DNA of 64,000 nucleotides. It comes from Pseudaquidulcibacter saccharophilus. GTDB lineage: Bacteria; Pseudomonadota; Alphaproteobacteria; Caulobacterales; Aquidulcibacteraceae. The translations under genes and the position numbers were made by a program. The stretch is taken from positions 887,856 to 951,855 of the forward strand of contig NZ_JAHWUS010000001.1 of NCBI RefSeq assembly GCF_019455445.1, written 5' to 3'. Below the pieces are notes generated by a model. The model searched no databases and was not told the origin of the DNA. It saw only the letters and a list, made by a program, of their open reading frames with translations. Below, piece by piece: positions 8,673-30,619 of the stretch; position 1 is the first letter of the stretch; every line of letters begins with the position of its first letter.

Positions 8673-8724
8673 TTGCCCCCTCCGACTTACTTTGCAAGTC
8701 ACCTCCCCCGCTAAGCAGGGGAGG
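8673..8724. repeat. REP-like palindromic element, copy A
   Basis: Architecture: TTGCCCCCTCCG, a variable inner hairpin (GACTT...AAGTC), CACCTCCCCCGCT, a short loop and CAGGGGAGGA. The same outer blocks with a different inner hairpin recur at 38314-38373. The element resembles the intergenic palindromes common in alphaproteobacterial genomes. Confidence 0.7.
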
Positions 8725-8741
8725 ACAAATCCCGCACTCAT

Positions 8742-8798
8742 GCTCCCCTGTTTACGGGGGAACTGTCACGATTTATTGTGACTGAGGGGGTAAACCCC
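8742..8798. repeat. REP-like palindromic element, copy B
   Basis: Begins GCTCCCCTGTTTACGGGGGA, then an inner hairpin GTCAC (8765-8769) / GTGAC (8778-8782), and ends TGAGGGGGTAAACCCC. It is adjacent to copy A and has the same plan of C-rich and G-rich arms around a variable stem, though the blocks differ. Confidence 0.6.
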
Positions 8799-8881
8799 TA
8801 ATCCATCTATCCCCCCGCCAATGAAACCCTTTATTATTCAAATTGGTTTGGTTTAGACGGCACAAATGGTGAGGGGGTGAA

Positions 8882-9007
8882 ATGTCAGGATTTGTCAGGG
8901 TTTTTGGGCGGTGCATGGATCATTGGGCGCATTATTTGTTTTTTCCAATGTCAACAAATGTCAACATTTTTCGGATGCCGCAAGAAAATGCCGAAAAATT
9001 TATTTAA
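8882..9007 (+). CDS. Possible mini-ORF, 41 codons, repeated at 30.4 kb
   Basis: ATG at 8882 with a good purine-rich site (GAGGGGGTGAA) immediately upstream. The peptide starts MSGFVRVFGRC and later has MSTNVNIFR. A separate locus (30422-30529, minus strand) encodes MSGNVRFFGGC and MSTNVNIFR in the same order. Between the two copies several nucleotide differences leave the residue unchanged (TTT/TTC for Phe, CGG/AGG for Arg, GGG/GGC for Gly), a weak hint of coding. At DNA level the blocks are tandem 9-nt repeats (TGTCAGG twice, TGTCAAC twice), so it may instead be a protein-binding repeat. No family known to me. Confidence 0.3.
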   Translation: MSGFVRVFGRCMDHWAHYLFFPMSTNVNIFRMPQENAEKFI

Positions 9008-9098
9008 ATAACTGAATAATAATGATTTTCTTGACAAGAATCGCGGTTACAAATTGTCACAAATATGGAAAATACGATTTTAAAAGGAGGTATTATAT

Positions 9099-9398
9099 TT
9101 AAATCACGGCCAATAGATTGGTGTAATTATTTCTTACGCCTGAATATGCCTTCATGCTGGCTTTTAAATCGACTTCTTGTTCAAGATTTTCGGCTTCACG
9201 AAGGATGTGGGCGGCAAAGAATGGGTTAAAGCCTTGGTACTGGCTTTGGTTTCTTTGTTGTTGTTGCTCTTTATGCTCATAAACATTGATGCGTGTCGCA
9301 TCGGGATTCATTTCAATGCTTTCCACGCGCGTAATTGCCGGAACATTGTTCCGTTTTGATACGCCTGAGGCAGAATATGAAGAAATCCCGTTTATCAT
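9099..9398 (-). CDS. Hypothetical protein, 99 residues
   Basis: A 99-residue hydrophilic protein opening MINGISSYSASGVSKRNN, with a Gln/Glu-rich middle (EHKEQQQQRNQSQYQG) and a C-terminal half, FNPFFAAHILREAENLEQEVDLKASMKAYSG, that should be helical. No signal peptide or membrane segment. I do not recognise a family. It is transcribed away from the EAL gene; a 162-base region separates them. Confidence 0.55.
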   Translation of the reverse strand: MINGISSYSASGVSKRNNVPAITRVESIEMNPDATRINVYEHKEQQQQRNQSQYQGFNPFFAAHILREAENLEQEVDLKASMKAYSGVRNNYTNLLAVI

Positions 9399-30261: not shown

Positions 30262-30307
30262 CTCCTTCCCTTGAGGGAAGGTGGACGCGAAGCGGACGGA
30301 AGGGTGG
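30262..30307. repeat. Dispersed repeat, copy C
   Basis: CTCCTTCCC-TTGA-GGGAAGG palindrome followed by TGGACGCGAAGCGGACGGAA and GGGTGG. The right part aligns with 30670-30706. It resembles the common alphaproteobacterial intergenic repeat built around GCGAAGCGGA. Confidence 0.65.
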
Positions 30308-30421
30308 CTTTGTCATACCAATAAACAGCTCCCATTATTTCACATAATGTAATCATTTTCCCCCTGCTTTACCCGTTTGTAACATCGATTAATTCAAATA
30401 AAACTATTGCTAATCAATGTT

Positions 30422-30529
30422 TTAAGTCGCTTGTTGGTGCGTATTTTTGCATCTCCTGAAAATGTTGACATTTGTTGACATGCAGAAATCAAATGAGCAG
30501 CCGCCAAAAAACCTGACATTTCCTGACAT
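30422..30529 (-). CDS. Possible mini-ORF, 35 codons, related to 8882-9007
   Basis: ATG at 30529 on the minus strand opens a 35-codon frame with MSGNVRFFGGC and MSTNVNIFR, the same blocks in the same order as the 8.9 kb ORF, but with a shorter spacer and an unrelated end. The upstream sequence has only a weak purine stretch. Coding is uncertain; a DNA motif (tandem TGTCAGG, tandem TGTCAAC, each at 9-nt period) is an equal explanation. Confidence 0.28.
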   Translation of the reverse strand: MSGNVRFFGGCSFDFCMSTNVNIFRRCKNTHQQAT

Positions 30530-30619
30530 ACCCAAGCCGCACTAATTAATTCAGCCAAAATACTTATGAATATTAATGGCATTTATCAAAGCGGGGATAG
30601 GTATGGAAATATCACTTCT

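Follow-up and report, generated by a model that had tools for sequence, protein, structure and literature searches.

Dispersed decamer-tandem elements in an alphaproteobacterial genus share words and a 5′ block with solitary small-terminase-like genes

Within a 64,000-nucleotide stretch of the Pseudaquidulcibacter saccharophilus genome, referred to here as the window, a short block of repeated words occurs twice in opposite orientations, which raises the question of whether it is a gene for a tiny protein, an RNA or a DNA element. The initial annotation described the same order of blocks at both copies, and we confirmed this, with the second copy on the minus strand (Table 1). The tandem repetition that it described is real, but its true period is 10 nt (a 7-letter word plus 3) and not the 9 nt claimed. 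The full element exceeds the span noted earlier, extending over about 8808-9051 (copy 1) and 30599-30378 (copy 2); copy 2 possesses all element parts, and the integration host factor (IHF) block of copy 1 is degenerate. The pattern TATC[AC][AC]-N15-18-TA[AT][AT]AT has three matches in the window, two of them at the elements. No sigma-70 consensus promoter or terminator was found in 8700-9200 around copy 1, and the 5′ block is therefore promoter-like by place and shape only. Across the whole window, the IHF consensus WATCAANNNNTTR occurs 15 times versus 6.9 expected, with none of 100 shuffles containing as many. REP-like palindromes are found at window positions 8742-8783 and 30262-30310 (CTCCCCTGTTTACGGGG..TGTCACGATTTATTGTGAC and CCTTCCCTTGAGGGAAGG), and similar ones lie beside several other elements of the same genome.

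Table 1. Parts of the two element copies in the window
Feature	Position	Strand	Basis
Copy 1, 5′ promoter-like block TATCCCC-(24 bp start to start)-TATTAT	8808..8837	+	pattern search
Copy 1, unit1, decamer tandem TGTCAGG-ATT-TGTCAGG = TGTCAGGATTTGTCAGG	8883..8899	+	sequence, family alignments
Copy 1, unit2, decamer tandem TGTCAAC-AAA-TGTCAAC = TGTCAACAAATGTCAAC	8949..8965	+	sequence
Copy 1, degenerate IHF-type block, 2 mismatches to YAANNNNTTGATW, outside the consensus	9005..9018	+	by eye; family offset
Copy 1, GGTTACA in the position of the conserved TGTTACA, 96 bp from unit2	9045..9051	+	by eye
Copy 2, 5′ promoter-like block TATCCCC-(24 bp)-TAATAT	30570..30599	-	pattern search
Copy 2, unit1 TGTCAGG-AAA-TGTCAGG	30512..30528	-	sequence
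Copy 2, unit2 TGTCAAC-AAA-TGTCAAC	30464..30480	-	sequence
Copy 2, IHF consensus AATCAATGTTTTA (WATCAANNNNTTR); on the element strand YAANNNNTTGATW	30412..30424	+	consensus scan
Copy 2, TGTTACA, 96 bp from unit2	30378..30384	-	sequence

A whole-genome search, proposed in the initial annotation, did reveal further copies. The genome from which the window comes (G000; 2.84 Mb, 12 contigs) contains the 17-mer of unit2 17 times and its reversed pattern not at all, and TGTCAN5TGTCA occurs 39 times whereas its reversal occurs 0 and 1 times on the two strands, so the repeats are not due to chance. A sequence model (R1) was built from 16 of the 17 unit2 copies, leaving out the copy within a coding gene, and produced 25 matches in 24 places (E up to 0.1; weakest E 0.026), two of the matches (L077 and L079) being neighbors in one place. 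Twenty-one of the 25 matches overlap no open reading frame (ORF) of at least 70 aa by more than 60 bp, three overlap ORFs of 70-97 aa, and one lies within a gene resembling those of terminase small subunits (TerS). The elements share one order, promoter-like block, unit1, unit2, IHF-consensus site and TGTTACA, at nearly fixed distances. This geometry was counted over 51 rows with units, 24 from G000 and 27 from its congener G018 (UBA1933, Hyphomonadaceae): in 34 rows TATC[AC] precedes the first unit by 55-80 bp, the IHF consensus YAANNNNTTGATW lies 54-60 bp after the units in 36 (16 from G000 and 20 from G018), and TGTTACA is found at 94-99 bp in 33. In the elements of both genomes, TATC[AC] is followed after 24 bp by TATAAT, TAATAT or similar, and the units lie ~50 bp downstream of this −10-like block. 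Even spacing of the elements along the chromosome was considered and dropped, the coefficient of variation not being clearly below random (P 0.14 and 0.07 in G000 and G018); the smallest gap between elements had P about 0.03 in both genomes.

At 19 of the 27 loci compared in G018, a neighboring gene matches the surroundings of a G000 element, indicating that element sites are inherited. Sequence identity was compared in 16 of these 19 pairs, with motifs located in the G018 sequence; L091, L093 and L111, which lack an exact unit2 on the G000 side, were omitted. Identity between the two genomes was 269/272 for unit2, 161/170 for unit1, 84/90 for TTGATT and 93/98 for TGTTACA, whereas the rest of the element sequence was identical at 2010 of 3418 positions (59%, versus 95-99% for the units). 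We read this as the mark of purifying selection on the element words at retained sites. The family, its geometry, its inheritance and its constraint are well supported, and the possibility of a DNA element has thus held up: the copies are dispersed and inherited, and their words are conserved beyond the sequence around them.

The peptides reported for the two copies, MSG-x-VR to MSTNVNIFR, can be read in both as claimed, and the two blocks share one frame because the distances between unit1 and unit2 (66 and 48 nt) happen to be multiples of 3. A tiny protein family, the first option of the initial annotation, is refuted by frame variation, short frames and the lack of a conserved Shine-Dalgarno sequence, and its probability is next to nil even though ATG starts 76 of 80 unit rows and the element peptides recur in TerS-like proteins. 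The frame check that the annotation had suggested was made on the 31 G000 and G018 elements in which both units are exact (one place counted twice, the TerS gene once): the distance between units, modulo 3, was 0, 1 and 2 in 11, 5 and 15 elements, the distances being 44-48 bp in nine, 64-68 bp in 19, and 26, 58 or 83 bp in the others. Open frames after the first codon of the units have medians of 31 and 16 codons, and the ATG is part of the DNA word itself. The ribosome-binding site described as strong at copy 1 is not a family feature, a Shine-Dalgarno-like string preceding 6 of the 80 unit rows in G000 and G018. STNVNI and SGNVRV are nevertheless genuine peptides of TerS-like genes in the genus, because the DNA word is embedded in those genes too. 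A structured RNA family was also rejected: an alignment of 16 copies folded with RNAalifold gave seven pairs, none with a two-sided change, and Rfam produced no match in the window at gathering scores.

One element copy in G000 and one in G020 (contigs of HYPHO1) lie inside genes that match terminase small subunits, and two TerS-like genes are present in four of the five genomes of the genus. None was found in G021 (290 contigs, 92% complete), although that genome has units. Two of the eight TerS-like proteins were scanned against profile collections, matching PF03592 (Terminase_2) at 1.3e-4 (below the cut-off) and 8.6e-8 (above it) and phrog_51 at 7.9e-12 and 1.2e-14, with no match in NCBIfam, and a profile of all eight matched the Pam5 small terminase (PDB 21di) at E 1.4e-23. 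The AlphaFold model of a genus TerS protein alone was poor (pLDDT 56), and no viral relatives were found for that protein or for a Microcystis-phage TerS. The G000 TerS-A gene adjoins an isocitrate-dehydrogenase gene and the G020 TerS-A gene a dihydrouridine-synthase gene; none of the 10 neighbors scanned around these two encodes a phage structural or packaging protein, and two of them match PHROGs of unknown function or nucleotide-sugar metabolism.

A decamer tandem is present in all eight TerS-like genes of the genus, always in the same place and with 6-8 of 10 positions matching; the word sits at the codons for R-[LM]-x-x-N-x-x-[IV], at the end of helix 3. At the motif codons, the TerS-A genes of G000 and G020 read TGTCAACAAATGTCAACATTTT, which is the unit2 word, and the TerS-A gene of G018, located before the same dehydrogenase gene as in G000, reads TATCAGGAAATGTCAGGGTTTT, which is unit1 with one mismatch; this exchange of a unit2 for a unit1-type word alters three residues, STNVNI to SGNVRV. 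Of 44 element loci checked, 4 also contain the variant TATCAGG. The corresponding codons are TGATAGCAAATGATAG(C/T) in the TerS-B genes and TGATATTAAATGATATGG in the TerS-A gene of G019. Away from TerS, G020 and G021 each contain two copies of the TerS-B word TGATAGCAAATGATAGC, three of these four sites lying in no open frame of 80 codons and the fourth (L248) under two overlapping unsupported frames. In G019, the dispersed units are TGTTAGC, versus TGATAGC and TGATATT in its TerS genes. The word TGATAGCAAATGATAGC also lies within a gene of G000 and G018 that by eye is truB-like, in the same frame (L244:1501-1517 and L245:1501-1517; LIANDSISA), and 3′ of a G019 TerS-like gene (L227) the string TGCTATCATTAATGCTATCATT, an inverted doubled TerS-B word, directly precedes the ATG of what by eye is an antitoxin-like gene.

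The 5′ block of the elements also recurs at these genes. With a profile of two boxes derived from 34 elements, the best placement is 36-38 nt before the ATG in all eight, and the scores of seven are equaled by just 0-4 of 1142 background windows, whereas the G020 TerS-A gene scores poorly (315 of 1142 as good). A stricter one-piece profile was weaker, with 0, 1, 1, 7, 8, 17, 84 and 445 of 1199 background windows as good. Both the 5′ block and the TerS word matches were noticed first and scored afterwards. Upstream of the TerS-like genes (L222-L229), the ATG closely follows a −10-like hexamer, which suggests leaderless transcripts.

Sharing of this kind could also arise if the elements were a MITE-like or otherwise mobile repeat that spread in the past and entered the TerS-like and truB genes by insertion or conversion. 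The dispersal of the copies, their two 5′ subtypes, adjoining REP-like repeats and an exact unit pattern confined to one genus (3 of 60 genomes of the family: G000 with 34, G018 with 46 and G020 with 2) would all suit such a history. Against it stand the flanking genes common to the two species at 19 of 27 sites, the conservation of the words while the rest of the element is at 59%, the lack of common ends in the element alignments, and a TerS alignment without length change at the word, and we therefore disfavor this reading and give it only a slim chance.

A looser pattern has 37, 49, 2, 8 and 2 matches in the five genomes of the genus and none when reversed. Most of the loose matches in G019-G021 are TGTTAG-type and partly form arrays of two or three with other words; one G020 match, in a coding stretch, looks like chance. 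A class-wide sample yielded matches in 2 of 385 genomes (G000 and G120), the exact unit2 extended to 21 letters had no match in IMG/VR, and a 21-letter pattern was also matched in unrelated genomes (6 of 32 stretches). Beyond the genus, BS150m-G7 (G060), a Black-Sea alphaproteobacterial MAG, contains elements built from runs of two to four TGTYAAC decamers, accompanied by IHF-consensus sites that resemble AATCAATGAYTTA. Its 5′ block, TTGAC..AGGAATATTWTC, differs from that of the genus, and the block AGGAATATT[AT]TC precedes both the elements and its TerS-like gene. A search for this block, covering 105,722 bases of loci, mostly from G060, found 10 places in BS150m-G7, seven with TGYYAACA decamers within 260 bp, two without and one at the TerS-like gene, and one further match in G061. 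The single TerS-like gene of BS150m-G7 (E 4.4e-16) is preceded by two versions of the local element block; its codons lack the word, with a tandem score of 1 of 10. BS150m-G7 is an independent lineage with analogous elements that share the 5′ block of its TerS-like gene.

Several BS150m-G7 elements carry CTCTTTGACA, which we take to be boxA-like, after the 5′ block. Together with a promoter-like block at a nearly fixed place, this is what would be expected if the elements were small untranslated RNA genes, under a promoter common to terS, whose decamers act in RNA. The 16 aligned copies showed no covarying structure, no Rfam match was found, and the units are separated by distances that differ by tens of bases, all of which make RNA genes of this type very unlikely.

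As an independent test of the in-gene tandem, we aligned TerS sequences other than those of the genus, 175 rows in all (160 from IMG/VR loci, 11 from GenBank phages and plasmids, three from other genomes of the family, and the BS150m-G7 gene), which formed 48 clusters at 65% identity; the IMG/VR sample had been seeded with peptides overlapping the motif, so some words are favored in it. In 21 N-type clusters, whose motif contains N, period 10 at the motif (offsets −3 to 0) was the top of 9 periods × 121 offsets, matching at 6.5 of 10 positions against a mean of 2.57 (sd 0.61), and in the other 27 clusters period 10 was also top, weakly (4.1). When the halves of each tandem were swapped between genes, own halves matched better than swapped ones in all 48 clusters together (4.92 versus 3.14 of 10), in the 21 N-type clusters (6.43 versus 3.93) and in the other 27 (3.74 versus 2.67), with 0 of 20,000 permutations as extreme in each set, and in the eight genus genes (7.38 versus 5.43; 27 of 20,000 permutations). 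The TerS peptide motif by itself accounts for some of the tandem, with 3.8-4.3 of 10 positions expected to match. Drawing synonymous codons for 59 distinct N-type words gave an expected match of 3.76 against 6.47 observed, 34 words having p up to 0.05; for 44 words without N in the motif, the difference was weak (2.65 expected, 3.23 observed). The tandem within terS genes is thus statistically strong. Since its period of 10 is not divisible by three, the codon length, we read it as a constraint on the DNA.

The words themselves differ between phages (TGACAAGGAA, TGAAAGCAAA, TGAGAACGAA, TGATGACAAA and TGTCAACAAA), and the STNVN word is used by several Pam5-like sequences. Further copies of a gene's own word near 20 phage-type terS loci were in no clear excess (mean 1.35 versus 1.04 for foreign words). 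In an AlphaFold model of the Pam5-like L274 protein (25 sequences, pLDDT 81), the motif codons correspond to residues 41-47, which span the end of helix 3 (35-42), a turn and the start of helix 4 (45-62); the best PDB matches of this model are small terminases at E 0.035 and above. Searches of open-licence PMC papers with a limited set of terms showed nothing on dispersed elements of this kind or on a repeat within terS codons.

Decamer direct repeats fit the binding sites of OmpR/PhoB-type response regulators in general. The units could accordingly be tandem half-sites of such a regulator acting with IHF, whose consensus lies at a nearly fixed offset, and the match to TerS could be a by-product of a peptide motif that alone scores about 4 of 10. 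Such a regulator is unlikely, however, because the units are located downstream and not upstream of the −10-like block, because unit1 (with one mismatch), unit2 and TGATAGC each occur both in TerS-like genes and at non-TerS sites of the genus, and because the elements show no common target gene: among 22 G000 loci, the nearest ORF of at least 120 aa on the downstream side has the orientation of the element at 11 and the opposite one at 11. The Pho box, the site of PhoB, consists of TGTCA direct repeats with an 11-bp period. This candidate was rejected, since the 16 aligned copies, which had been found with a period-10 word, have period 10, and the only TGTCAN6TGTCA in the window lies apart from the elements.

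As a ligand for the decamers, the likeliest candidate would be the solitary phage-derived, small-terminase-like TerS of the same genome, together with IHF. Our prediction, which we hold at even chances, is that the dispersed, inherited and mostly intergenic elements are bound by such a solitary, domesticated TerS with IHF; the putative link to TerS binding rests on the shared words and the shared 5′ block. By analogy, we infer that the tandem within terS may be a pac-like TerS recognition site. In phages of this TerS family, terS itself would then carry the recognition site, in the codons that end the recognition helix, and the bacterium would have retained the in-gene site along with about two dozen chromosomal copies under the promoter block of the TerS gene. 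IHF binding, promoter activity and a function of the elements we likewise infer: nucleoprotein sites formed by TerS on the elements may control TerS itself and co-regulated transcripts, or may mark the chromosome, and they might alternatively serve as decoys for phages with the same word or as packaging starts.

A TerS ring whose outer helix-turn-helix domains meet the DNA once per turn would suit the decamers. Passages of a review describe phage TerS as forming rings, mostly nonamers, and doubt DNA-wrapping models; purified phage TerS are said there mostly to bind DNA weakly and without specificity, and TerS recognition of DNA is called unclear and controversial (PMC9611059). We have also considered a wider formulation in two linked claims: that throughout a large tailed-phage family the recognition site is a phage-specific decamer tandem in the terS codons for the end of the recognition helix, with one DNA stretch fixing both the site and part of its reader protein, and that some Alphaproteobacteria have domesticated a TerS of this type and spread its site along the chromosome as IHF-assisted elements, at a density of about one per 90 kb, from which a gene transfer agent (GTA) starts packaging or which act as decoys against phages that share the TerS word. 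We regard this joint formulation as distinctly unlikely. The hidden tandem in terS would allow the recognition site to be predicted at the sequence level for many phages and, if the reading is true, the chromosomal copies would represent a new cellular use of a phage packaging protein, as a regulator, a decoy or a GTA start system.

An RcGTA-type cluster is present about 12 kb before the window (G000:C4:863.2-875.5 kb; L271), with TerL (PHROGs), portal, HK97 capsid and megatron genes and with TIGR01537, TIGR01554, TIGR02217, TIGR02218 and NF048004 over their cut-offs. The TerL family PF03237 is found in all five genomes of the genus and had no match in BS150m-G7. The cluster shows the GTA itself and not that the elements belong to it. 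In G000, a 91-aa ORF overlaps the TerL start, where, in the portion of a report concerned with these genes, GTA terS genes usually lie (PMC6854486), so the solitary TerS genes are not needed as a GTA small terminase, and that role for them appears weakened. The same portion describes RcGTA TerS as binding DNA weakly, with no clear preference (PMC6854486), and an excerpt on the type-case GTA reports that no discrete packaging starts were found (PMC7947584). A relation between the elements and a GTA promoter was rejected: the block upstream of TerL in G000 and G018 is weak, with 4 of 1142 background windows as good, and was the best of several stretches.

Among known systems, the Caulobacter GTA is regulated within the same bacterial class, and a section of its description records IHF at 18 of 20 dispersed GafY regions (PMC11150451). 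G000 resembles it in also having an RcGTA-type cluster. Unlike the GafY element, which, in that section, lies upstream of its promoter, the elements described here showed no sequence likeness to it, and the G000 GTA has its own 91-aa ORF. The P22 pac site is, in the passages cited above, a 22-bp asymmetric recognition sequence inside the small-terminase gene (PMC9611059). The 17-22 bp word inside the terS-like genes of the genus is similar, a likeness that fits the in-gene word and not the other copies; unlike pac, it is a decamer tandem, and it is accompanied by about two dozen sites with an IHF consensus and a promoter-like block. In lambda cosB, the TerS sites R1-R3 are combined with an IHF site. 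The elements likewise place repeated, presumed TerS sites beside an IHF consensus, and a possible cosB-type layout would be one or two units plus the consensus, which lies at 54-60 bp in 36 of the 51 rows and is absent from window copy 1; they differ from cosB in having no known cos nick site, in sequence, and in being chromosomal and multicopy. Finally, the RIB/RIP repeats of Escherichia coli combine REP with IHF sites. The elements, too, are dispersed intergenic repeats with an IHF site, but in place of a palindrome their units are direct decamers, and they carry a promoter-like block.
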